Positions 73-17,353 of a DNA stretch of 64,000 bases are shown one piece after another. A program made the translations under genes and the position numbers. This stretch comes from Erythrobacter sanguineus. Lineage in GTDB: Bacteria > Pseudomonadota > Alphaproteobacteria > Sphingomonadales > Sphingomonadaceae. Each line of letters opens with the position of its first letter. The first letter of the stretch is position 1. The notes beneath the pieces are model-generated. The model did no database searches. It saw only the letters and a list, made by a program, of their open reading frames with translations, and had not been told where the DNA came from. The stretch spans positions 1 to 64,000 of the forward strand of contig CAMCUB010000001.1 of the NCBI GenBank assembly GCA_945878845.1, read 5' to 3'.

Positions 73-149
73 GGCGGAGTAGCTCAGCCGGTTAGAGCAG
101 CGGAATCATAATCCGCGTGTCGGGGGTTCGAGTCCCTCCTCCGCTACCA
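73..149 (+). tRNA. tRNA-Met (anticodon CAT), elongator type
   Basis: A 77-nt cloverleaf can be folded. The acceptor arm GGCGGAG pairs with CTCCGCT (one G-U at the top), the D arm starts GCTC, the anticodon stem GCGGA/TCCGC encloses loop ATCATAA with anticodon CAT, the T arm contains GGTTCGAGTCC, and the 3' CCA is encoded. A closed, ordinary acceptor top pair and the non-GGG anticodon stem argue against the initiator tRNA. A lysidine-modified tRNA-Ile2 also has CAT, so Met versus Ile2 rests on overall resemblance. tRNA genes are common integration points, and the next 6 kb look accessory. Confidence 0.93.
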
Positions 150-262: not shown

Positions 263-553
263 TCATGCGATTATAACGGACGTCACCGGTCGGCGCGGTG
301 CGAAGGGCATTGCCGGGCCAGAGCCTAAGCGCATCACGGTATCCGGGCGCTTGCCGGGCGCGCCGAACAGCGCGGCCAGTTCGGGGCGCAGGGCTGGCGC
401 CTCTACCGGCTGGTTGATGAAGGCGTGCTTCATGCCGAGCGGGGGCACCTGCCGGGCAACTTCGGTCAGTTTCTCGCTGAAGTCCGAGATTCTCGTTCCG
501 GCCCCATTGCGGACCTGGGTTGCGGCATTTATGCGACGGTAGGTGCAAATTAT
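263..553 (-). pseudogene. C-terminal remnant of an Acg-type nitroreductase
   Basis: The minus strand reads openly for about 96 codons from a stop near 556 down to 263 but has no good start. It ends in text typical of the C-terminus of Acg-family FMN-dependent nitroreductases: KHAFINQPVE, then ALFGAPGKRPDTVMRLG, then PFAPRRPV. Full-length members are over 300 residues, and nothing upstream (553 onward lies under the transporter gene) continues the protein. I read it as the 3' tail of a gene truncated when the transporter segment arrived or by deletion. Family identification is from memory of the C-terminal motif. Confidence 0.5.
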
Positions 554-573
554 TCAAGGCCGAAAGCTCGGTG

Positions 574-1986
574 GTGAATCAGTTCGACAAAAAGCTGATG
601 TCGCTCTGGATGGGCTGGGGCAAGCGGCTGTTGCCGTTTGCCGATGCCGCCACTGACGATCTGCCGCTGTCTCGCCTGCTCAGGCTTTCGCTCATCCAGT
701 TTTCGGTCGGAATATCGCTGACCCTTCTGGTCGGCACGCTCAACCGCGTGATGATCGTCGAGCTTGAAGTGCCCTCGACGATTGTTGGCGTAATGCTCGC
801 CCTTCCACTGTTGGTTGCCCCGTTTCGTGCGCTTATTGGCTTCCGTTCCGACACGCATCGTTCCGCGCTGGGCTGGCGCCGGGTGCCCTTCATCTTTCGC
901 GGCACCATGATCCAGTTCGGCGGTCTGGCGCTGATGCCCTTTGCACTGCTGGTGCTCGGCGGTGCGCTGCAATCGGCGGCCTGGCCTGCATGGATCGGCC
1001 AGATCAGCGCGGCGGTGGCAATCCTGCTGGTCGGCGCGGGCGTGCACATCACGCAGACGGTCGGCCTTGCCCTTGCCACCGATCTGGCGCGCGAGGACCA
1101 GCAGGCCAATGTTGTCGGGCTGATGTATGTCAGCATGCTGCTGGGATCGATTGTCTCCGCGCTGGCGCTCGGCGCCTTTCTCACCGATTTCACCCCCGGG
1201 CGGTTGATCCAGGTGATCCAGGGCTGCGCCGTGGTCACCGTGTTCCTGAACCTTGTCGCCACATGGAAGCAGGAGGCACTCAATTCGAGCCCGCCGCCAA
1301 GCGATCCGGCGGCCATGGCCGGGACGTTCCGCCAAAGTTGGGACAGTTTCATCGTCCTGCGTCAGGCGCTGCGCCGCCTGATCGTGATCGGGATCGGGAC
1401 GCTGGCCTTCACCATGTCGGATGTGCTGCTCGAGCCCTATGGCGGTCAGGCGCTCGGCCTCGGGGTGGGCATGACGACGCGGCTGACCGCGATTCTGGCG
1501 GGGGGCAGCCTAGTGGGCTTCACGATCGCATCGCATATCCTCAGCCGCGGCAGCGATCCGGTCAGGCTGGCGGGGGCGGGCGCACTGATGGGCCTGCCCG
1601 GCTTTGCAATGATCATTGTCGCAGCGCCGATCCAATCGGTCTCGCTGTTTTCGGTCGGCGTCCTGATGATCGGCTGCGGTGCCGGCCTGTTCGGCCACGG
1701 CACGCTGACCGCCACGATGCGCGATGCGCCCAAGGGACAGGTCGGCATGGCGCTGGGGGCATGGGGCGCGGTTCAGGCAACCGCGGCCGGAGCAGGCGCG
1801 GCGATTGGCGGCGTGGTGCGCGACCTCGCCCGCGGTCTTGTGATCATCGAAGGATGGCCCCCGGCGATCTCCGGCTATGTTCTGGTCTACGCGCTGGAAC
1901 TGGTCCTGCTGGCGGCGGCGCTGATCATCATGGTGCCGCTGCTGCAGCGTCCGCAGGAACAGGCCGGGCTGCTGCCGCGCGTCTGA
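574..1986 (+). CDS. pucC: BCD/PucC-family MFS transporter, light-harvesting complex assembly factor
   Basis: A roughly 470-residue, very hydrophobic protein with about 12 predicted membrane helices, of the PucC/LhaA/BCD branch of the major facilitator superfamily. These inner-membrane proteins are needed to assemble LH1 or LH2 antennae and are thought to handle bacteriochlorophyll delivery. Family-like text includes LPFADAATDDLPLSRLLRLS at the N-terminus, GTLNRVMIVELEVP after helix 1 and GWRRVPFIFRGTMIQFGG after helix 2. The frame is open from an ATG at 520, but that part overlaps the nitroreductase remnant. GTG 574 gives an N-terminus of the usual length (VNQFDKKLMSLW), and ATG 598 is the next option. 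It converges on pucBA, so assignment as the LH2 assembly factor pucC rather than LH1-type lhaA is inferred from context. Confidence 0.87.
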   Translation: MNQFDKKLMSLWMGWGKRLLPFADAATDDLPLSRLLRLSLIQFSVGISLTLLVGTLNRVMIVELEVPSTIVGVMLALPLLVAPFRALIGFRSDTHRSALGWRRVPFIFRGTMIQFGGLALMPFALLVLGGALQSAAWPAWIGQISAAVAILLVGAGVHITQTVGLALATDLAREDQQANVVGLMYVSMLLGSIVSALALGAFLTDFTPGRLIQVIQGCAVVTVFLNLVATWKQEALNSSPPPSDPAAMAGTFRQSWDSFIVLRQALRRLIVIGIGTLAFTMSDVLLEPYGGQALGLGVGMTTRLTAILAGGSLVGFTIASHILSRGSDPVRLAGAGALMGLPGFAMIIVAAPIQSVSLFSVGVLMIGCGAGLFGHGTLTATMRDAPKGQVGMALGAWGAVQATAAGAGAAIGGVVRDLARGLVIIEGWPPAISGYVLVYALELVLLAAALIIMVPLLQRPQEQAGLLPRV

Positions 1987-2074
1987 GCAATTTCCGCCAA
2001 TGCGCCTGCGGGCGCGCCGGTTGCGTGTTTTCCAGGCGGCTCCGGCTTCCGGCTGAACCCGTGTCTGCGGCACA

Positions 2075-2105
2075 TAAAGAAAGACCCGGCACTTGCGGCC
2101 GGGTC
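2075..2105 (-). terminator. Rho-independent terminator of pucBA
   Basis: Arms GACCCGGC (2083-2090) and GCCGGGTC (2098-2105) form a perfect 8-bp GC-rich stem with a 7-nt loop. Read on the minus strand, the stem is followed by TTTCTTTATG, so it fits termination of the pucBA message about 80 nt past the pucA stop. On the plus strand it is followed only by CTTCG, so it is a weaker terminator for pucC. Confidence 0.75.
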
Positions 2106-2185
2106 CTTCGTGTTGTGTGCTCCACACCGCCCTTGCGGGCTGGATGGATTGTGCAAGCCTCAGGCCCCTGCGGGCCTGCTGTGGC

Positions 2186-2371
2186 TTATACAGCCGGTGC
2201 TGCAGCAGCAGCCGCGGCAGGAGCAGCGGCACCCTGGAAGAAGTCGCTCATCCAGGTCGTGTTGGTGAGAACGGAGTAATGGACCGCGAGCGACGCCAGC
2301 ACCAGTACGAGGAACATGATCGGAATGATCACATTCGGGCTGACATAGAGGAAAATCCGACCTTCTTTCAT
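2186..2371 (-). CDS. pucA: Light-harvesting antenna alpha polypeptide, LH2 type
   Basis: A 61-residue single-helix antenna alpha subunit. It starts MKEGRIFLYVSPNV, like the MxxGKIW..V.P start of LH alpha chains, has one transmembrane helix, the bacteriochlorophyll-ligating His in SLAVHYSVL (H31), and the TTW...FFQG segment just after the helix. The tail is an unusual Ala/Pro run (GAAAPAAAAAAAPAV). At 13 and 14 residues after the ligating His, where high-light LH2 alpha chains carry Tyr and Trp or Tyr that hydrogen-bond the B850 pigments, this protein has Phe-Phe. It begins 13 nt after pucB with the ribosome site GGGAGG in the gap. LH2 rather than LH1 is supported mainly by the beta partner. 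Confidence 0.9.
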   Translation of the reverse strand: MKEGRIFLYVSPNVIIPIMFLVLVLASLAVHYSVLTNTTWMSDFFQGAAAPAAAAAAAPAV

Positions 2372-2384
2372 CGTCTGGCCTCCC

Positions 2385-2540
2385 TTACTTGAGCCACGGC
2401 GTCAAAACGAACGCCAGCACGTGAGCGGCAACGGCGATGCCGAAGTAAATCCGCGTCCCCCATTTCAGCCCGTCATTGATTTCCAGGGCCTGCGCTTCCG
2501 TCAGCCCTGTCGGGTAAACCATTGTGTCATCACCTGCCAT
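2385..2540 (-). CDS. pucB: Light-harvesting antenna beta polypeptide, LH2 type
   Basis: A 51-residue antenna beta subunit found by translating the minus strand upstream of pucA. It contains GLTEAQALEI, then WGTRIYFGIAVAAHVLAF and ends TPWLK. The GTR...G.A..AH.LA..TPWL pattern is that of LH2 (PucB) beta chains, not LH1, which ends RPW. The pigment-ligating His is H40 in the single membrane helix, and the Arg of GTR, which in LH2 contacts the B800 pigment, is kept. The conserved His 18 residues before the ligating His is replaced by Asn (EIND). ATG 2540 has GGAGG nearby upstream (GATCAAGGAGGTTCGCCAC). It is the first gene of the pucBA pair. Confidence 0.92.
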   Translation of the reverse strand: MAGDDTMVYPTGLTEAQALEINDGLKWGTRIYFGIAVAAHVLAFVLTPWLK

Positions 2541-3252
2541 GTGGCGAACCTCCTTGATCGGTTACGGCATTCGCGGAAACTCGGTAATGACCCCAGCCTT
2601 GTTCCCTTGGGATGCAATTAGCGTGGATGTGGAATTCTCCATGAACCGCATCAAAAATAGCGAATACGGCCATAGGCATCGAGTCGGGTGAGCGGCTTGA
2701 TGCAGATTGAATGTTGCATTTTACAGGACAAACGTCAACGTTGTTGAACATATTGCAATGTCCAGAAAATTTGTCACTGGTCACGCCTTTTCGAAGGGAA
2801 TTGGTCGGCCCGGTGGTGGTCTCACGGAACGGGCGGGAGTGGACGAGCGCCAGTCGGCGTTACGTTTTCATCAATCATCATGCGCCGCGCCAGACTATGG
2901 CCGATGCTGTCGGCCCGCGGCGCGAAACAATTGCAGCTCTTCACCCGCGTCTGCTGAAAAACTCGTCCTTGTAATGCCGCTAAAATATTGATTTCATGTC
3001 CTCTAAGGCAGGCGGAGATGATGTCGACGCGGTCGTGGAGCGGACGAAATGCCATGTTTATGGCCTTTCCTGTGAGGGGATGAGTTGGCTTGGCACGCCC
3101 CTCTCGAGAGCGCCAACCGGGCCCATCCGGATCTCTGGCGATACAGAATCAAGGTGGAGGTGCGAGAAAGATTTGGGCTTGCACTCAACCTCTGCTAGGA
3201 CGCTCTCGGGATCGACAACAATGGGCTCCTTAACGGAGCGAAGGAGGTCGAT
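2541..3252. promoter_or_regulatory. Long divergent intergenic region upstream of pucB and the DUF2853 gene
   Basis: No convincing gene is present in these 712 bases; the open frames here lack homology and ribosome sites. The stretch 2600-2780 is clearly more AT-rich than its surroundings and contains an 8-bp palindrome CAACGTTG (2736-2743) and TTGCA/TTGCAA copies at 2714 and 2753. An imperfect FNR/FixK-like site TTGAT-GCAG-ATTGA lies at 2697-2710. I looked for the PpsR/CrtJ operator TGT-N12-ACA and found only an off-spaced TGT-N13-ACA (2712-2730). Promoters for both divergent units presumably lie here, but I cannot place a -35/-10 pair with confidence. Confidence 0.45.
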
Positions 3253-3771
3253 ATGTCCAATGCAGCCCCAGCCATCGACTGGGCGGATGACGTCAAGCGG
3301 TATGTACCCAATGCCGATAACGACGTGATCGCCGGAATCGTAAGCCATAGTCTTGTTGTGCTGAAAACCCGCGACTCGGCGCTGGTGTCGTTCGGCAATC
3401 CGGCGGAAACGCGCCGCGTGCGCGAAAATTTCTGCAAGAAGACGCTCGGTCTGTCCGAATCTGACGCCGTGCTCGACTCCGCCATCGCCACAGTTGGCCA
3501 GCGGCTGAGCGACTCCACCTCGCGCCACCGGGTGACGGCTTATTACCTTCTTGCCGACCATTTCGACAAACTGGAACAGTTCCGCGCGGCGACGCCACCG
3601 GCCGAAGCGGCCCGGCCTCTGGCGCCGTGGGCGGCGACCATGTTTGACGGTCCCCCCCCGGGCACGGCCGTCGGCGGCCCCAGCTCCGATCTCACGTTTG
3701 GGGCCTTGGCTGGTCTGAGCGGCGGGATTCTGGCGATGGTTGCAGCGATTGCCAGTCATGCTGGTGGCTGA
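3253..3771 (+). CDS. DUF2853 family protein with C-terminal membrane segment
   Basis: A 172-residue protein. Residues 1-110 match the DUF2853 family as I know it: DWADDVKRYVPNADND, then VSFGNPAETRRVRENFCKK, LGLSESDAVLDSAI and RVTAYYLLADHF. The function of the family is unknown; members are usually about 110 residues, all of this domain. Here a Pro/Ala/Gly-rich linker and a hydrophobic, glycine-spaced segment (LTFGALAGLSGGILAMVAAI) are added, which could anchor it in the membrane. The start is supported by AAGGAGG 7 nt upstream. A run of eight C (3652-3659) lies just before the tail. It is divergent from pucBA, so a role with the antenna is possible but unproven. Confidence 0.8.
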   Translation: MSNAAPAIDWADDVKRYVPNADNDVIAGIVSHSLVVLKTRDSALVSFGNPAETRRVRENFCKKTLGLSESDAVLDSAIATVGQRLSDSTSRHRVTAYYLLADHFDKLEQFRAATPPAEAARPLAPWAATMFDGPPPGTAVGGPSSDLTFGALAGLSGGILAMVAAIASHAGG

Positions 3772-3876
3772 CGCTCCGATCGCAGATCGTCCTCGGCACT
3801 GACAACGGCCGAAACGGCAGAACGGCTGCACTGACCACTCCTGACCTCATGGCTCTGGAGAGAGTGCCAACCAACG

Positions 3877-3898
3877 GGCCGGGTTGTGCTTCCCGGCC
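3877..3898 (+). terminator. Hairpin downstream of the DUF2853 gene
   Basis: Perfect arms GGCCGGG (3877-3883) and CCCGGCC (3892-3898) around an 8-nt loop, followed by TGTTGTG. It lies about 105 nt beyond the DUF2853 stop and is the only strong hairpin in the otherwise featureless 3772-4123 stretch. The absence of a proper T run keeps confidence low. Confidence 0.4.
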
Positions 3899-4123
3899 TG
3901 TTGTGCCGTTCGCGAATCTGCATATCCGGCAGAGCGTGTGTAGCCGCGCGGCCTGACCGGCCCGGGTCTGGGGACGAACCCCGTCGTTCCCAGTCGCGGC
4001 ATGCCGCCTGAACCGGGTGGGCCACGGTCAAGTCGCCGCGCCAGCTTGCTCGTTTTGACAGGTTACCATCGCCTGCTCCTGTCCCATTCGAGAATGCGAA
4101 ACGGATAGGGAGCGGGCTTGATA

Positions 4124-5846: not shown

Positions 5847-6023
5847 ATGATCACGTCGATCCCGCTGAACAAGCTGGTTCAGTCGCCCCGCAATGTCCGC
5901 CGTCTCAGCGATCCGGCAGGAGATGCTGAGCTCAAGGCAAGCATTGCAAACCGTGGCCTGCTGCAGAATCTCATCGTCCGGCCCGCCGCGAAGGGCAAGT
6001 TCGAGGTCGAAGCCGGCGAATGA
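5847..6023 (+). pseudogene. Truncated ParB/RepB-type partition protein (N-terminal fragment)
   Basis: ATG 5847 opens a 58-codon frame: IPLNKLVQSPRNVRR, then DAELKASIANRGLLQNLIVR and FEVEAGE, followed directly by TGA. This is the N-terminal ParB nuclease-like domain of plasmid or integrative-element ParB proteins, where the text normally continues ERRRxAL into the helix-turn-helix region. Everything after residue 58 is missing, and no continuation is seen in other frames before 6342. It is therefore a broken copy and not the chromosomal ParB. It suggests a former plasmid or integrative element here. Confidence 0.7.
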
Positions 6024-6607: not shown

Positions 6608-7252
6608 TCAGGGCGCTCGAAGCACGTGGAGCTGGTAATAGCCTAGCGGCCCGCGCTTGCTTTCCAGCGTCAACCCGCGCGCCTTCGCTACCTCGTCGGC
6701 AAGCTCTGGAAGGTCCGCGCGCGGGCTCACATGGAACTTCGCCAGCCACGCCCGCAAGCCCCGCTGGAACGGCACCGGCATACCGGCAAGGTCGCCGAAA
6801 TCGACCACGTGCAGCTCGCCGCCCGGCGCGAGTTGCCCCGCCGCATGGGTCAGCGCGCCCTGCCAGTCGGGGATCATCGAAAGCGAATAGGACAGCACGA
6901 TCCGCTCGAAGGCGGGCTCGCCCAGCAGGCTGGCGGGATCGAAGGCGCAGGCATCGCCTTCGCCCAGCCGTGCCTCTTCGCCCAGTGCCGCGCGCGCGCT
7001 CTTGAGCATCTCGGAGGAGATATCGAGGCCGAACAAGCGCACCCCCGGCCACGCCTTGGCGACCTTGGCAAGGTTGCGCCCCGTCCCGCAGGCGACTTCA
7101 AGCACCCGCATCCCCGGCGTCGCCGCCAGCCCCGCGATCAGCGTGTCGCGCCCGAACAGATAGTACTTGCGGGTGAAGTCATAGATGTGGCGCTGCCCGC
7201 GATAGACCTCGTCCATCAGCGCGGCGTGCGAGGGGCGGGGGGTGCTCGCCAT
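6608..7252 (-). CDS. btaB: BtaB: S-adenosylmethionine-dependent N-methyltransferase for betaine lipid
   Basis: A 214-residue class I methyltransferase. Motif I is VLEVACGTGRN, the acidic end of strand 2 is LFGLDISSEML, and a post-II motif is VLSYSLSMIPDW. The N-terminal MDEVYRGQRHIYDFTRKYYLFGR is the characteristic start of BtaB, which trimethylates diacylglyceryl-homoserine to the phosphorus-free betaine lipid DGTS at the inner membrane. Its ATG overlaps the btaA stop (TAATG), so the pair is translationally coupled. The assignment depends on btaA being next to it and is strong. Confidence 0.9.
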   Translation of the reverse strand: MASTPRPSHAALMDEVYRGQRHIYDFTRKYYLFGRDTLIAGLAATPGMRVLEVACGTGRNLAKVAKAWPGVRLFGLDISSEMLKSARAALGEEARLGEGDACAFDPASLLGEPAFERIVLSYSLSMIPDWQGALTHAAGQLAPGGELHVVDFGDLAGMPVPFQRGLRAWLAKFHVSPRADLPELADEVAKARGLTLESKRGPLGYYQLHVLRAP

Positions 7253-8466
7253 TACGCGAGCTCGTAGACGTGCACGCCGCCATAGATCGACGAGCGATCG
7301 CGGCGGGTGAGGTCGGCGGAAAGCTCTTCGAGATAGCGCCACTTCGACAGGATCGCGTCATCGAGCCGTCCGGTGAGCAGGCTCGGCTCGGCCGCAGTGC
7401 GGAACAGCACGCGGGCGCCGGGGCGGCTGGCGCGGGTGATCTTGGTCCACAGATCGTCAAGCTGGGCGTTGTTCATCCAGTCCTGCGCGTCGAGCAACAC
7501 GAAGCGGTCCATGCTCGCCTCTTCGCGCCCGCCGATCCAGTCGACCATGTTGGCGCGGGTGACGTCGAGCCGGCCGATCCGCTCACGCATCGCCTCCCAG
7601 TTGGCGCGCTGGAGATAGGGCGGCAGGGCGGCGCTTTCCGAACGGTTGTAGCCGCGCCCGAAGGCCTGCCAGGCGAAGTAGTTGTCCTTGACCTCGAAGT
7701 CGCAGGCGAGCTTTTCCAGACGGCGGCGCAGCACTTCGGCCATGCGTTCATCGCCCGCAAGGTGCTCGAACTGTGCAGGCGGAATGCCGAGGCCGAACAG
7801 CGAGGCGGGTTGATCGGTCAGCCAGCGGATGAACTTCTTCTCGAACACCGGCGCCAGCTCCTGCTCGAACACCGCGCGCTGTTCCTCGAGCGTCTGCGCC
7901 TCGAGCAGCTTGCCCAGATCGATCTTGTAGAGCTTGGCAAAGACGTGTGCCAGGCCGATGAAATTGCCCAGCAATCCCTTCCGGTAGATGCCGCGCGTGA
8001 AGTAGCTGATGCGCTTGCGCCCGCGGATGTCGCGCTTTTCCCAATAGGCGCGGCTTTCCTCGTCGAGATGGGGCGCGATCATGGTCTTGTAGACCGCCGC
8101 GTTCTCCTTGTGGTCGGCATGGGCGAAGAAGCGGTGGAAGCGCTCGTAATTGGGCAGATGCTTGATCGCGGCGATCTTGAGCCGCCCGAGCGCGACATGC
8201 GCATGGTTGAGATCGACCGCGGTCACGCTCTCGGGGTTGGCCGTGAGGTAGGACAGCGCGTTGCAGCTGCCGCTGGCGATGCACATCACGCGGCTGTCGG
8301 GCTGGATGTCGAGGCCCTCCATGTCGACCACCGGGTCTTCCCAGATCTGGGCATAGACCAGCCCCTTGAAGGCGAGCGCAAACGCCTTGTCGAGCAGCTT
8401 GTCGCTGACCTTTGCATCCTTGCGGATCACCGCTTCTTCGATGATCCGCTTTGCTTGAGTAGCCAT
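7252..8466 (-). CDS. btaA: BtaA: SAM:diacylglycerol 3-amino-3-carboxypropyl transferase
   Basis: A 404-residue DUF3419/BtaA protein that transfers the 3-amino-3-carboxypropyl group of SAM to diacylglycerol, the first step of DGTS betaine lipid synthesis. Family text includes GLVYAQIWEDPVVDMEGL, CIASGSCNALSYL (SAM site), VDLNHAHVAL, and near the end RANMVDWIGG and ARVLFRTAAEP. In other alphaproteobacteria the pathway is induced by phosphate starvation to replace phospholipids. I looked for a Pho box in the 81-nt gap upstream (8467-8547) and saw no convincing direct repeat. A good Shine-Dalgarno is also missing immediately before ATG 8466 (the gap is CCCCCCTCCCCC), so an upstream CAAGGA may serve. 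Confidence 0.93.
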   Translation of the reverse strand: MATQAKRIIEEAVIRKDAKVSDKLLDKAFALAFKGLVYAQIWEDPVVDMEGLDIQPDSRVMCIASGSCNALSYLTANPESVTAVDLNHAHVALGRLKIAAIKHLPNYERFHRFFAHADHKENAAVYKTMIAPHLDEESRAYWEKRDIRGRKRISYFTRGIYRKGLLGNFIGLAHVFAKLYKIDLGKLLEAQTLEEQRAVFEQELAPVFEKKFIRWLTDQPASLFGLGIPPAQFEHLAGDERMAEVLRRRLEKLACDFEVKDNYFAWQAFGRGYNRSESAALPPYLQRANWEAMRERIGRLDVTRANMVDWIGGREEASMDRFVLLDAQDWMNNAQLDDLWTKITRASRPGARVLFRTAAEPSLLTGRLDDAILSKWRYLEELSADLTRRDRSSIYGGVHVYELA

Positions 8467-12568: not shown

Positions 12569-13762
12569 ATGCAGACCAAGGCCGGTGATCCCGGGGCCTT
12601 CGCCCATTTCGACCTGTCGCGCGTCGACAGTCCCGCTTTCGTGGTCGATGCCGCGCGGCTGCGCGCCAATTGCCGGGTGCTCGCCGGAATTCGCGATGCT
12701 GCGGCTGCGGACGGCGGGGACATCAAGGTTTTCGCCGCGCTGAAGGCATTCTCCATGTGGTCGGCCGCGCCGATCATCGGCGAATACTTGGACGGCGTGT
12801 CTACCTCGGGCCTGTGGGAAGCGCGCCTCGCATCCGAGTTCTACGACGGCGAGATCGCCACCTATTCCGCCGCCTTCAAGCCCGAGGAGCTGGAGGAGAT
12901 CTGCCGCCTCTCCGACCACGTGATCTTCAACTCGCCCTTCCAGCACGAGCGTGCGCGCCTGATCCTCGACCATGCGGCAGCAAACGGCGCCAAGGTCAGC
13001 GTCGGCCTGCGCATCAACCCGCAAGTGCCCACCGGCGAGGTCGCCAAATATGACCCCAGCGCCCCCGGATCGCGGCTCGGCTTCCCGCTCGACCAGCTCA
13101 CCGAGGAGCACATGGAGGGCGTCGAGGGCATCCACTTCCACAACCTGTGCGAACAGGATTTCGAGCCTTTGAAGGCGACTTGGGACCGCGTGTTCGACGT
13201 GATCGAGCCCTATTTCGAACAGCTCAAGTGGATCAACATGGGCGGCGGCCACCACATCACCCGCGCCGATTACCAGCGCGACGAGTTGGTCGAGTTCCTC
13301 AAGGATGCCGCCAGCGACACCGGCTGCCAGATCATCCTCGAACCGGGCGAAGCGGTCGCGCTCGACGCAGGGATTCTGGTCGGCACGCTGCTCGACACGC
13401 ACTTCAACGAGATGCCGGTGGGGATCACCGACATCTCGGCGACCTGCCACATGCCCGATGTCCTCGAAGCGCCCTATCGCCCCGCGATGCTGGGCGAAAT
13501 CGCCGACGACAATATGATCCCGATCCGCCTCGGTGGGCCTTCGTGCCTCGCGGGCGATGTGATCGGCGACTACCGCCTGCCGGTCCCCGCCGAACCCGGC
13601 GCGCGTTTCGCCTTCCTCGATCAGGCGCATTATTCGATGGTCAAGACCAACACCTTCAACGGGGTCGCGCTGCCGAGCATCTGGATGTGGGACAGCGAAA
13701 CCGACGCGCTCGACTGCATCAAGCGCTTCGATTACGCCGATTTCCGCGACCGGTTGAGCTGA
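12569..13762 (+). CDS. nspC: Carboxy(nor)spermidine decarboxylase
   Basis: A 397-residue PLP enzyme of the alanine racemase-fold decarboxylases. It converts carboxyspermidine to spermidine, the last step of the aspartate-semialdehyde route. The PLP lysine is in KVFAALKAFSMWS. Other family text is GVSTSGLWEARLA, HNLCEQDFEPL, INMGGGHHITRADY, LEPGEAVALDAG and GPSCLAGDVIGDY. ATG 12569 starts 2 nt after the lipoprotein stop with no clear Shine-Dalgarno, so translation may depend on coupling to it. The first 72 bases are duplicated at 11511-11582. Confidence 0.92.
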   Translation: MQTKAGDPGAFAHFDLSRVDSPAFVVDAARLRANCRVLAGIRDAAAADGGDIKVFAALKAFSMWSAAPIIGEYLDGVSTSGLWEARLASEFYDGEIATYSAAFKPEELEEICRLSDHVIFNSPFQHERARLILDHAAANGAKVSVGLRINPQVPTGEVAKYDPSAPGSRLGFPLDQLTEEHMEGVEGIHFHNLCEQDFEPLKATWDRVFDVIEPYFEQLKWINMGGGHHITRADYQRDELVEFLKDAASDTGCQIILEPGEAVALDAGILVGTLLDTHFNEMPVGITDISATCHMPDVLEAPYRPAMLGEIADDNMIPIRLGGPSCLAGDVIGDYRLPVPAEPGARFAFLDQAHYSMVKTNTFNGVALPSIWMWDSETDALDCIKRFDYADFRDRLS

Positions 13763-13786
13763 TCGGCCGGACGGGGGGACAGATAG

Positions 13787-14287
13787 ATGACGAGACTTTG
13801 GGCAATTGCGGCGGCGCTCGCCATCGCTGGGGCAGCCGCGCCCGCGGCGGCGCAGGATTACGATGCGAAGCGTGTGGTGATGTCGGTCAGCCAGGCCGAT
13901 CTGGCCGCGATCGTCACCTCGCTCGGGCACAAGATCAGGGAGACCGGCAAGCCCGGTGAAACCTATCTTGCCGCCGAAAGCGAGGATGGGATCATCTACC
14001 TCATGTTCGGCACCGCCTGCGAAGTGAGCGGCGTGCCCGGGTGTCAGGGGGTGATGATCCAGGCGCGCTATGACTTGCCCGAAGGCACCACGCTCGAAAC
14101 CCTCGCCAAGACCAATGATGCGCAGGCCGCGATCAGCATTACTGCCGATTTCGCGGCCAAGTCGCTGGTCTTCACCCGCTATCACGTGCTCGATCACGGG
14201 GTGACGATGGCCAATATCCGCGAGAACGTGAACGTGCTGCTCGCGGTGACCGCCGATGCCTATCCGATGGCCGCGGGCGAGGAATAA
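13787..14287 (+). CDS. Secreted YbjN-domain protein
   Basis: A 166-residue protein with a cleavable signal peptide (LWAIAAALAIAGAAAPAAAQ, cut near residue 22). The mature part resembles the YbjN fold, a type III secretion chaperone-like domain of unknown role: VSQADLAAIVTSLGH, GIIYLMFGTACE and FTRYHVLDHGVTMANIRENV. It lies 24 nt after nspC with its own weak ribosome site and could be part of that transcript. Confidence 0.65.
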   Translation: MTRLWAIAAALAIAGAAAPAAAQDYDAKRVVMSVSQADLAAIVTSLGHKIRETGKPGETYLAAESEDGIIYLMFGTACEVSGVPGCQGVMIQARYDLPEGTTLETLAKTNDAQAAISITADFAAKSLVFTRYHVLDHGVTMANIRENVNVLLAVTADAYPMAAGEE

Positions 14288-14290
14288 AAT

Positions 14291-15271
14291 CTAGAGTTCG
14301 CCTGCGGCCTGCGGGTTCTGCTCCATTGCCCGCCCGCGCTCGTTCTGGTTGATCGCCAGCGCCAGCCCCGCCAGCGCATCAAACTGGCGCGCGGCGCGCG
14401 CGGCGTTCTCGTGATCGCGGCTGGCGTCCATCCCGCCGCTTTCGAACAGGTTGCCCGACTCGATCGCGATGATCACCTCGCCGCGGGCGAACAACGCGCG
14501 CAGTTCGCGCGCCTCGAAGGCGCTTTCGAGCCGCAGCAGATGCTCGACATAGGTCGGATGGACCAGCACCCGCGCCTCGACTTGATCGTCGGAATAAAGC
14601 GCGAAGGTCTCGCCGAAAGCGGGGTGGACCTGATCGACGCGGTCCAGCCGATGGCCCTCGAAGCTGACATGATCGCTCGCGCCGCCGAGCCCCAGCCACT
14701 TCCTGTGCTTGCCCGCCCGTTCCAGCAGCGTCGTCGAATGGAACCGCCGACCAAAGCCCATGCGGATCACCGGGCCCCGGAACACCGTCACCCAGTGGCG
14801 ATTCTTGCCCGATCCGCGGCGTTCTTCGAGATGGCATTCATACAGGTCGAAATCATGCCCCTCGAGCGTGCCGTGCCAGCGGTCCTCGAAGTTCGAGCGG
14901 TCGTAGCCGGGTAGCAGGCCATAGCTGCGCGCCGCCTCGAATTCCGGGCCTGGCTCGACCTCGGCGGCATAGGAGAGGCCGTGGCTGGCGGCGATCGCGG
15001 CGTTGATCCCGGTCTTGATCGCCAGCTTCGCTGCCGCGATCGGGCGGTATCCCCAATAGGCCGCGCCCGCGATTCCGGCGAAGGAGAGGATACCCGAAAG
15101 CTGCGTCGGCAAGGGGCTGAACCACACGAAGGCGAGCACCGGCATGAGGATCACCGCGCCCCACACCCAGCGTGAGGTAGCCTGACTTTTCGCTCCCTCG
15201 CGCATGTCAGCCTGACCGGCGAGCCAGCTTTCCAGCCCGCCTGCCATCAGACCATCAATATCGCTGCGCAT
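14291..15271 (-). CDS. DUF3137 membrane protein, divergent from LemA
   Basis: A 326-residue protein. After a soluble N-terminus, two adjacent membrane helices lie at about residues 34-54 and 57-75, followed by a soluble domain with DUF3137-like text: FEDRWHGTLEGHDFDLYECHL, TVFRGPVIRMGF and RVLVHPTYVEHLLRLE. DUF3137 genes commonly neighbour lemA in bacteria, as here, where the two face away from each other across about 75 nt. The biochemical role is unknown. The stop lies 4 nt beyond that of the convergent YbjN gene. Confidence 0.75.
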   Translation of the reverse strand: MRSDIDGLMAGGLESWLAGQADMREGAKSQATSRWVWGAVILMPVLAFVWFSPLPTQLSGILSFAGIAGAAYWGYRPIAAAKLAIKTGINAAIAASHGLSYAAEVEPGPEFEAARSYGLLPGYDRSNFEDRWHGTLEGHDFDLYECHLEERRGSGKNRHWVTVFRGPVIRMGFGRRFHSTTLLERAGKHRKWLGLGGASDHVSFEGHRLDRVDQVHPAFGETFALYSDDQVEARVLVHPTYVEHLLRLESAFEARELRALFARGEVIIAIESGNLFESGGMDASRDHENAARAARQFDALAGLALAINQNERGRAMEQNPQAAGEL

Positions 15272-15345
15272 TGCCTCTCCCGCGCTATTCTTTAAGGTGC
15301 TTGCACCACATTAGTGGGGGTCCGGTAAAGGGGGGTAAATTGGAT

Positions 15346-15897
15346 ATGCTGTTCTGGCTGTTTGTTGCGGGCGGGTTTGCGCTGCTGCTGATCGCGATCG
15401 GCGTCTACAACAATCTCGTCGGCCTCAGGCAGAGCGTGCGGCAAGGGGTCGCCGATATCGATGCCCAGCTGCGCCAGCGGCATGATCTTATCCCCAATCT
15501 GGTCGAGACCGTGAAAGGCTATGCCGGACACGAAGCGGCGACGCTCGAAGCGGTGATCGCGGCGCGCAATGCCGCTGCCAGCGGTGCGCCGTCTTCGGGG
15601 GGCGAGCAGCAATTGAAATCCGCGCTCGGCAATCTGCTGGCGCTGGGCGAGGCCTATCCCGATCTCAAGGCCTCGGCCAACTTCCAGTCGCTCCAGGGCG
15701 AACTTGCCGATGTCGAGGACAAGCTCGCCGCCGCCCGCCGCGCCCTGAACGCTGCGACCGCGCGCTTCAACGCCGCGCGCGAATCCTTCCCGGCGGTGCT
15801 GTTTGCCGGAATGCTCGGGTTTGCCGAGGCGGACTTCCACCGCCTCGATGCGAGCGAGCAGGGGACGGTCGATCAGGTGCCGCGGATCGGCTTCTGA
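15346..15897 (+). CDS. lemA: LemA family protein
   Basis: A 183-residue LemA protein: one N-terminal membrane helix (FWLFVAGGFALLLIAIGVY), then the helical-bundle domain with the family signature NNLVGLRQSVRQGVADIDAQ, LRQRHDLIPNLVETVKGYAGHE and NFQSLQGELADVEDKLAAARR. The helix would place the bundle outside the inner membrane. The start is ATG 15346 or TTG 15340, both behind a G-rich site (AAAGGGGGG); the longer frame from 15271 overlaps the divergent gene. Function is not established for the family. Confidence 0.87.
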   Translation: MLFWLFVAGGFALLLIAIGVYNNLVGLRQSVRQGVADIDAQLRQRHDLIPNLVETVKGYAGHEAATLEAVIAARNAAASGAPSSGGEQQLKSALGNLLALGEAYPDLKASANFQSLQGELADVEDKLAAARRALNAATARFNAARESFPAVLFAGMLGFAEADFHRLDASEQGTVDQVPRIGF

Positions 15898-16147
15898 TTC
15901 GGCTCCAAAACGGCGGCAAAACGGCGCCAATCCGGGGGTTTCTGGTCACATTCCGGTCGCGTTCCGGCGGCGAGCCGGGCGATGTCTTCAAAAAGTAACA
16001 TTTCGCTGGCGCGGGGTGCATTTTTCATTTGCATTCCCCCCCCAAAGCCCTAGATGCGCCCTTCCGCTGCCCCAAGGGGACTTCCAAACCGCAAGGCAGC
16101 TTGTCGTTTTATGGTTTTTCAAAAAGCCGTTTTGGGGGTCCCTTGAG
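15898..16147 (+). promoter_or_regulatory. Ornithine decarboxylase leader, candidate for the alphaproteobacterial speF RNA motif
   Basis: A 250-nt leader without a gene precedes ornithine decarboxylase. It contains several short complementary pairs: CCCC-AA-GGGG at 16072, CAAG-GCAG-CTTG at 16099, AAACC (16088) with GGTTT (16111), and a small hairpin GGTTTTTCAAAAAGCC just before the coding region. A conserved structured RNA (speF motif) is known upstream of such decarboxylases in alphaproteobacteria. I cannot verify its consensus here, so this is a position-based proposal. Confidence 0.3.
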
Positions 16148-17353
16148 TTGCACATCTATCCTGACGCACTGGCTGTAGTCCGCGACCTTCGTCCGGACGA
16201 ACCCGTCATCCTCAACCGCCCGCACGCCGCGCGGCGCGCCGCCCGTTTCTTCGTCGAGAAGTTTCCGGGCAAAGTGCTCTATGCGGTCAAGGCCAATCCC
16301 GCGCCCGATCTGATCGAGGTGCTGTGGAGCGCTGGTGTCACCCACTATGACGTCGCCTCGATCACCGAGGTGCGGCTGGTGCGCGGCATTCTGCCGGACG
16401 CGGTGCTGTGCTTCATGCACCCGGTGAAGACCCCGGCAGCGATCGCGGAAGCCTATTTCGATCACGGCGTGCGCACCTTCAGCCTCGACACTGTCGAGGA
16501 GCTGGAGAAGATCGTCGCCGCTTGCACCGACCCCGCGACCGGCGAGGCTCCGCGCGACCTGCGTCTGTGCGTGCGGCTGCGCGTGTCGAGCGAGTATTCG
16601 GAGCTTTCGCTGGCGAGCAAGTTCGGCTGCGACCTCATCGAAGGCCCGCAGCTGCTCCAGCAGGCCCGCCAGCATTGCGACTGGCTGGGCGTGTGCTTCC
16701 ACGTCGGCAGCCAGGCGATGACCCCGTTTGCCTTCGTCCAGGCATTGGACCGCACCCGTGCGGCGATTGCCGAGGCGTCGGTGGTGATCGACATGATCGA
16801 TGTCGGCGGGGGCTTCCCGAGCTCGTACCCGGGCCTCGAACCGCCGCCGATGGAAGATTACTTCGCGATCATCGCCAAGCATTTCGAAAGCCTGCCGATC
16901 GCCTACAACGCCGAGCTGTGGTGCGAACCCGGCCGCGCGCTGTCGGCCGAGTATTCCTCGATGATCGTGCAGGTCAACAAGCGCCGCGACGAGGAGCTCT
17001 ACATCAACGACGGCGCCTACGGTGCCCTCTATGATGCCGCCCACGTCGCGTGGCGTTTCCCGGTGCGCGCGCTGGAAGACGACCTGATCGAGGAAGACGA
17101 GGACTTCGCCTTCTACGGGCCGACCTGCGATGATGCCGATTACATGAAGGGCCCCTTCAAGCTGCCCGGCGACATTCAGGCGGGCGACTATATCGAGATC
17201 GGGATGCTCGGCGCTTACGGCGCGGCGATGAAGACCGGCTTCAACGGCTACGGCAATGCCCGGGTCGTCACCGTGCAGGACGAGCCGATGATGAGCCTGT
17301 TCAACGGCACCCGCGTGCGCGAAGCGACCGACAACGTGGTGAGCCTGCGCTGA
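16148..17353 (+). CDS. Ornithine decarboxylase (PLP, alanine racemase fold)
   Basis: A 401-residue group IV decarboxylase that makes putrescine from ornithine, feeding the carboxyspermidine enzymes encoded upstream. The PLP lysine is in LYAVKANPAPDLIEVL; further signatures are HYDVASITEV, CFHVGSQAM, DVGGGFPSSYPG, ELWCEPGRALSAEYSS and the catalytic GPTCDDADYM. The start is taken as TTG 16148 (HIYPDALAVVRDL follows) because no in-frame ATG lies near and family members begin here. The open frame continues upstream to 15803, through lemA, without support. A related lysine/ornithine dual activity cannot be excluded. Confidence 0.9.
   Translation: MHIYPDALAVVRDLRPDEPVILNRPHAARRAARFFVEKFPGKVLYAVKANPAPDLIEVLWSAGVTHYDVASITEVRLVRGILPDAVLCFMHPVKTPAAIAEAYFDHGVRTFSLDTVEELEKIVAACTDPATGEAPRDLRLCVRLRVSSEYSELSLASKFGCDLIEGPQLLQQARQHCDWLGVCFHVGSQAMTPFAFVQALDRTRAAIAEASVVIDMIDVGGGFPSSYPGLEPPPMEDYFAIIAKHFESLPIAYNAELWCEPGRALSAEYSSMIVQVNKRRDEELYINDGAYGALYDAAHVAWRFPVRALEDDLIEEDEDFAFYGPTCDDADYMKGPFKLPGDIQAGDYIEIGMLGAYGAAMKTGFNGYGNARVVTVQDEPMMSLFNGTRVREATDNVVSLR

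Follow-up and report, generated by a model that had tools for sequence, protein, structure and literature searches.

The window (the whole stretch of 64,000 nucleotides analysed here) very probably holds a complete module for a peripheral light-harvesting antenna, LH2, whose gene cassette has been exchanged horizontally and which would work beside an LH1-reaction-centre system encoded elsewhere in the genome. In the explanation that we favour, the products of pucB (beta chain) and pucA (alpha chain) would form a peripheral ring carrying B800 and a B850-type ring of bacteriochlorophyll a, with a blue-shifted band for the latter. The neighbouring PucC would help to assemble this ring, and PpsR, encoded on the reaction-centre contig C19, would repress its synthesis through two boxes before pucB. 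The ring would then pass excitation to the LH1-reaction-centre complex. The features of the locus and its surroundings are as follows.

73-149 (+): tRNA-Met by the contig end, adjoining the cassette
499-3966: conserved cassette pucC-pucAB-DUF2853, its order common to loci L035-L039
520-1986 (+): pucC, an intact gene for an LH2 assembly protein (major facilitator type), convergent with pucBA (PF03209); position 520 is the first possible start codon, and the true start may be further in
2079-2109 (-): terminator-like hairpin of 12 pairs between the convergent pucA and pucC
2186-2371 (-): pucA, LH2-type alpha chain, 61 aa (open reading frame, Pfam and PDB match)
2237-2251 (-): pucA codons 41-45, the B850 tuning residues (residue table; role in hydrogen bonding from PMC9618040 and PMC8775250)
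2385-2540 (-): pucB, LH2-type beta chain, 51 aa (open reading frame, Pfam and PDB match)
2733-2750 (-): PpsR/CrtJ-like box 2, TGT-N12-ACG, one mismatch (motif scan)
2759-2776 (-): PpsR/CrtJ-like box 1, TGA-N12-ACA, one mismatch (motif scan)
3253-3771 (+): DUF2853 gene accompanying the cassette, within the shared block (PF11015, 90.4 bits)
about 5850-6020 (+): N-terminal fragment of ParB, probably a gene remnant

Gene content and regulation of the locus

A preliminary description of this DNA had placed two very short antenna genes on the minus strand, and both open reading frames lie exactly where it put them; the GTR...AH...TPWL pattern that it read in the beta chain is present in the translation. 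It had also noted a terminator after pucA and no reaction-centre gene beyond it. A terminator-like hairpin is indeed found there, and the next gene, on the opposite strand, is pucC. The 3' region of pucBA (2060-2190) folds far better than shuffled sequence, with several stems (z = -6.14), and a Shine-Dalgarno-like GGAGG can be read before pucB at 2549-2553. The pair had been called isolated, which it is not, since the intact pucC adjoins it and converges on it; the match of pucC to PF03209 (464 bits) covers profile positions 1-399 of 401. The same description set the pair beside a tRNA and gene remnants. The tRNA-Met is real but 2 kb away, and the remnants come down to the single ParB fragment, 3.3 kb away. 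Further along the window, at 6608-8466, a methyltransferase gene and a gene for a DUF3419 protein adjoin each other, and we take this pair to resemble btaB-btaA, of betaine lipids.

Both chains are recognizable as antenna polypeptides. With the Pfam family PF00556 the beta chain scores 28.3 bits (above the cut-off of 23) and the alpha chain 22.8, just below it. The best sequence match in the PDB is the same entry for both, 9lt4 (alpha 1.2e-23, beta 2.6e-30), deposited as a light-harvesting complex with nine chains each of alpha and beta; thus the pair is not a chance find. Each chain has the histidine that serves as B850 ligand (alpha His31, beta His40). Further residues of interest are Ser27, Met41, Phe44 and Phe45 in alpha and, in beta, Arg30 of the B800 site and Asn22 in place of the usual His. 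Modelled with AlphaFold from its single sequence, the alpha chain is one helix (pLDDT 77), and a Foldseek search with this model gave one match, an irrelevant one.

Sixteen upstream regions of 290 nt were scanned for TGT-N12-ACA and compared with 200 mononucleotide shuffles. Five perfect sites were found against 0.86 expected, and 37 sites with at most one mismatch against 17.8; none of the 200 shuffles reached either count, although related upstream regions are not independent and the shuffle figures therefore overstate the enrichment. More telling is the occurrence of two boxes 26 nt apart. In the window they lie at -236 and -210 of pucB, each with one mismatch. A pair with this spacing and at most one mismatch in each box is present in eight of nine Erythrobacter upstream regions (missing in L038) and in three of seven from outside the genus (L042, L046 and L050), and is absent at that threshold from the other four (L043, L047, L048 and L049). 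The genome encodes PpsR at C19:51802-53097 (371 bits, above a cut-off that was not reached in any of 14 control genomes). PpsR probably represses pucBA through the two predicted boxes.

Affiliation with LH2 and occurrence in the genus

The genome gives four antenna matches, namely the window pair and a pair at C19:44763-45095. After the C19 pair come genes for two reaction-centre proteins (PF00124, 303 and 329 bits), which are pufL and pufM by their order, and so the separate pufBALM for which the preliminary description had proposed a search does exist. We built a maximum-likelihood tree from 36 beta+alpha rows: 17 LH2 and 13 LH1 rows chosen from the window genome and the fetched loci, and four LH2 and two LH1 pairs from the PDB. 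The chains are short and the tree is unrooted, with several weakly supported inner branches, but a single clade with support of 100 takes in all 15 LH1 rows, and the window pair lies outside it with the LH2 rows. The LH1 of the same genome belongs to the same Pfam family as the window pair; unlike the window pair, it has a KPW ending and an MWR..FDIRR alpha chain, adjoins reaction-centre genes and falls in a separate clade. pucBA is encoded apart from puf and with its own pucC, next to no pufLM and with no LH1-type sequence, and it has the alpha Met1 start and the beta Arg30 of a B800 site. By these comparisons the window pair is LH2 (PucBA), separate from the LH1 of the genome. The preliminary description had taken it for LH2 and not LH1, and the comparison with LH1 and LH2 sets that it named as the test of this reading gave no grouping with LH1.

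Two other readings of the locus were weighed against a working LH2. In one, the pair is a divergent second LH1, a duplicate of pufBA. LH1 and LH2 chains do share one Pfam family, and the nearest NCBIfam models for both chains are LH1 models, all below their cut-offs (pufB 53.3 bits against a cut-off of 61, pufA 12.9). However, the best PDB matches are the 9lt4 chains, nine of each, the other pair of the genome is the one that sits with reaction-centre genes, and the tree sets the window pair apart from all 15 LH1 rows; on the tree we rejected an LH1 identity, which we regard as extremely improbable. In the other reading, the locus is a silent or decaying remnant that gives no functional antenna. 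Such loci do decay: one pucC copy of E. sanguineus (type 1, L036) is broken by stretches missing relative to the window copy, and the type-2 pucA (L041) is out of frame in the same assembly. The ParB remnant also lies nearby. Against decay of the window locus, its pucB, pucA and pucC are open and full length, the terminator and upstream boxes have been kept, and pucC dN is 0.020-0.038 against a dS of 0.08-0.21 in comparisons with four relatives. We think it quite unlikely that the locus is a remnant and favour a functional LH2 module. Elsewhere, two more PucC-family stretches occur in the genome, one beside the reaction-centre genes (L005:13227-14678, by Pfam) and one found by DNA match (G000:C22:54441-55287).

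LH2 had been described as uncommon in the Erythrobacter group, and the genome counts agree. Among 37 genomes of the genus, the window genome included, 29 gave an antenna match (E <= 0.001) and three of these have an extra LH2 beta chain (G000, G017 and G022). In a draw of 61 genomes of the genus that overlaps the first, strong matches to both pucC and pucB were found in four (G000, G017, G022 and G078), of which G078 looks like the E. sanguineus genome, judging from its matching loci. Two antenna pairs each are also present in G038 and G047, genomes of other families. A scan of contigs gave 19 loci, 16 in alphaproteobacterial and three in betaproteobacterial records; 14 of the 16 are titled Erythrobacter or another sphingomonad. 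The named carriers are E. ramosus, E. sanguineus (with two loci), E. dokdonensis, Sandarakinorhabdus limnophila and Polymorphobacter multimanifer.

LH2-type absorption has been published for E. ramosus (798/832 nm) and E. dokdonensis (800/835 nm), and peripheral bands for S. limnophila (837/800 nm) and Polymorphobacter FW250 (855/800 nm), all as given in a 2025 review, according to which most Sphingomonadales are without LH2 genes (PMC12654162). A 2011 study of ten strains reports LH2 genes as absent from its two sphingomonads (PMC3176799), and a word search of the E. dokdonensis genome announcement gave no mention of puc or LH2 (PMC5009977). Our literature searches returned no paper titled on an Erythrobacter LH2 gene cassette among the matches listed, no match for LH2 and pucBA in Sphingomonadales, and for 9LT4 one unrelated match and no paper on that structure. 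LH2 in Erythrobacter is thus of a known kind, to which the window pair adds a member that is rare in the genus.

Pigment-site residues and predicted colour

The alpha chain aligns without gaps to that of Rba. sphaeroides LH2 up to residue 47, so that positions can be compared one by one. The window shares alpha His31 and Ser27 and beta Arg30 and His40 with the B800-850 LH2 of Rba. sphaeroides and Rbl. acidophilus; at alpha 44 and 45, where those complexes have their hydrogen-bonding partners of B850, the window has Phe, and beta His22 is Asn. In Rba. sphaeroides, where alpha Tyr44 and Tyr45 make these bonds, Tyr44Phe gives B800-838 and Tyr44Phe/Tyr45Leu gives B800-826 (PMC8775250). A ring without these hydrogen bonds absorbs at 803 nm (PMC9618040). 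The LH3 (B800-820) of Rbl. acidophilus 7050 (PDB 1ijd) resembles the window in having no donor at alpha 44 and 45, where it has Phe-Leu (PMC8775250), but its alpha Tyr41 still makes a hydrogen bond (PMC9618040), and at this position the window has Met.

Among sphingomonad-type antennas the residues of three relatives fit their published spectra: E. ramosus (832), E. dokdonensis (835) and S. limnophila (837) all have Phe-Trp at alpha 44/45. P. multimanifer has Tyr-Trp there, and the 855 nm band is that of another strain of its genus, FW250. Phe-Phe is shared by the window with E. sanguineus type 1, L037, G017 and 9lt4. With Met, Phe and Phe at 41, 44 and 45, the window has no hydrogen-bonding side chain at any of these positions, and at 44 and 45 it lacks a donor in the manner of blue-shifted LH2 and LH3. 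The acetyl groups of B850 would thus have no side-chain hydrogen bond, and we predict a blue-shifted long-wave band at about 803-826 nm, most likely near 814, a figure taken solely from the deposited name of the 9lt4 alpha chain, B-800/814. The beta chain of that entry is named B-800-850, so the deposited names may be inherited. The LH2 alpha chain of 8z81 also has Phe44-Phe45, together with Tyr41, and was left out of the prediction.

The 9lt4 complex is an LH2 of E. sanguineus, a source that we infer because the E. sanguineus genome contains exact matches to its beta chain and to those pieces of the 9lti LH1 chains that were compared. Like the window, it has Phe44-Phe45 and beta Asn22; it differs in having Phe at alpha 41, where the window has Met, and in its alpha chain, the compared part of which is that of E. 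sanguineus locus 2 (type 2). Its beta chain comes from one E. sanguineus locus and its alpha chain, in the part compared, from the other.

Beta position 22 is a further mark of this group. In Rba. sphaeroides, beta His22 is part of the B800 network, and with Ser in its place nearly all B800 absorption was lost (PMC8775250). The window has Asn at this position (codon 22, 2475-2477), as do all 16 sphingomonad-type LH2 rows (the window among them) and 9lt4, compared with His in 15 LH1 rows and four other LH2 rows. Three of the species with Asn22 show a band near 800 nm (PMC12654162), so B800 is evidently bound with Asn there. In our judgement beta His22 is usual in LH2 and not defining, since it is absent from 9lt4. 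On the residues compared, beta Asn22 is a feature of the sphingomonad-type LH2 clade.

Probable movement of the cassette between genomes

The pucC-pucAB-DUF2853 cassette has most likely moved horizontally between Erythrobacter lineages, and most likely into the window genome too, because pucC is less diverged than rpoB, the surroundings differ, and a cassette-free site can be found. The block at 499-3966 matches L035-L039 in pieces at 85-96% identity. In the comparison with the locus of the E. ramosus B798-832 antenna (L035), the cassette is 91.9% identical over 3.48 kb with the same gene order, and the beta chain is identical over 51 residues, whereas alpha 41/44/45 are Phe-Phe-Trp (Met-Phe-Phe in the window) and the genomic surroundings differ. 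Beyond the block, the fetched flanks of L035-L038 did not match the window next to the cassette; on the left this comparison covers 499 window bases, as the window starts at a contig end, and L039 is a 3.6-kb contig, too short for comparing surroundings. In the window the cassette is bordered by tRNA-Met and SDR genes. The E. sanguineus copy lies between an L20 gene and, on its opposite side, inositol monophosphatase and prs, and the E. dokdonensis copy has tRNA-Thr/Cys, a thioesterase and a radical-SAM gene as neighbours. L035, L036 and L038 share an extra piece of 0.28-0.44 kb near the cassette that is missing from the window, so the surroundings are not wholly unlike among the relatives. 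The G+C content of the cassette is 62.1%, and that of the window 65.7%.

The cassette-free site is the one occupied by the type-1 cassette in E. sanguineus. Its flanks (the L20 side and inositol monophosphatase) are 5.1 kb apart in E. sanguineus and 1.9 kb apart on contig C26 of the window genome (G000), whose cassette match is on C1 and not at the C26 site. The distance between the same flanks is 2.7 kb in G022 and 4.1 kb in G087, a genome that carries its cassette at another place; in G085 and G088 they are far apart or on different contigs. From the window side, the right flank (SDR genes) has matches of about 300 bits or more in eight other genomes of the 61 of the genus, but the contig of the best of these ends soon beyond the match, and for positions 150-499 only stretches of at most 46 bases matched, in three of 60 other genomes. 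As neither search gave a usable empty site, this argument rests on the E. sanguineus position. Two related sequences lie elsewhere in the genome: a further stretch homologous to DUF2853, 72% identical to that of E. sanguineus, at C25:25931-26245, and window positions 13582-17347, which match the sequence to the left of the second LH2 locus of E. sanguineus (L041 1-3993) in three pieces at 71-88%. The genome antenna search found no second LH2 pair at 13582-17347.

Synonymous divergence also bears on whether LH2 was instead inherited vertically from an Erythrobacter ancestor and lost in most lineages. Other sphingomonad groups also carry this kind of LH2, close to a pucC and in part preceded by similar boxes, and an old origin of LH2 in the order is therefore possible. 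However, dS of pucC and rpoB between the window and its relatives is 0.10 and 0.31 for E. ramosus, 0.08 and 0.28 for L037, 0.10 and 0.52 for L039 (rpoB compared over 1024 codons only) and 0.21 and 0.39 for E. dokdonensis. Type-1 pucC is the less diverged of the two genes in all ten pairs among these five, by about 1.8-5.3-fold; the type-1 pucC of E. sanguineus, which is broken and distorted in its alignment row, and the partial rpoB of G017 were left out. Type-1 and type-2 pucC (the latter from G022 and E. sanguineus locus 2) differ by a dS of 0.56-0.77, with values of 0.61 and 0.77 for the window itself, which speaks against a general brake on pucC divergence. Together with the differing positions of the cassette between genomes, these values make purely vertical descent very improbable, and horizontal movement is the reading that we adopt. 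The preliminary description had suggested acquisition from the nearby tRNA and remnants; acquisition is supported by the dS values, the surroundings and the cassette-free site, and not by that original basis. No exact repeat of at least 13 nt of the tRNA-Met occurs elsewhere in the window, and the fetched stretches of L035, L036 and L037 hold no tRNA genes (that of L038 holds tRNA-Thr and tRNA-Cys). On the lack of a repeat in the window and of tRNA genes in L035-L037, we rejected tRNA-directed integration as the mechanism.

Exchange may also have occurred on a smaller scale within pucA. We compared the window at the sites that distinguish E. ramosus from E. sanguineus type 1. It agrees with E. 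ramosus at 21 and with E. sanguineus at nine from position 2800 down to codon 32, at one and 11 in pucA codons 33-47, and at three and five beyond. The first segment differs from codons 33-47 with a Fisher p of 0.0004, for a segment that was chosen after viewing the data. Over codons 33-47 the window is identical to E. sanguineus at 44 of 45 positions and to E. ramosus at 34 of 45; over pucB the corresponding figures are 145 and 153 of 156. Local recombination best explains this mosaic segment of about 45 nt, and selection on the tuning residues may have contributed. We tentatively propose, as a possibility somewhat short of even, that Erythrobacter swap a self-contained LH2 colour cassette (pucC, pucAB, DUF2853 and the PpsR boxes) separately from the main photosynthesis cluster, and that local recombination also exchanges a wavelength piece of about 45 nt in pucA, so that near-identical antenna genes would absorb differently (about 832-837 nm with Phe-Trp, about 803-826 nm with Phe-Phe).

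A compact cassette that combines an antenna, its assembly factor and probable regulatory sites, and that moved between Erythrobacter genomes, would be a direct case of adaptation to light colour by horizontal transfer, in which LH2 is added onto an existing LH1-reaction-centre system. The few residue differences between near-identical cassettes form a naturally occurring series of mutants that bears on the hydrogen-bond rule of B850 tuning.
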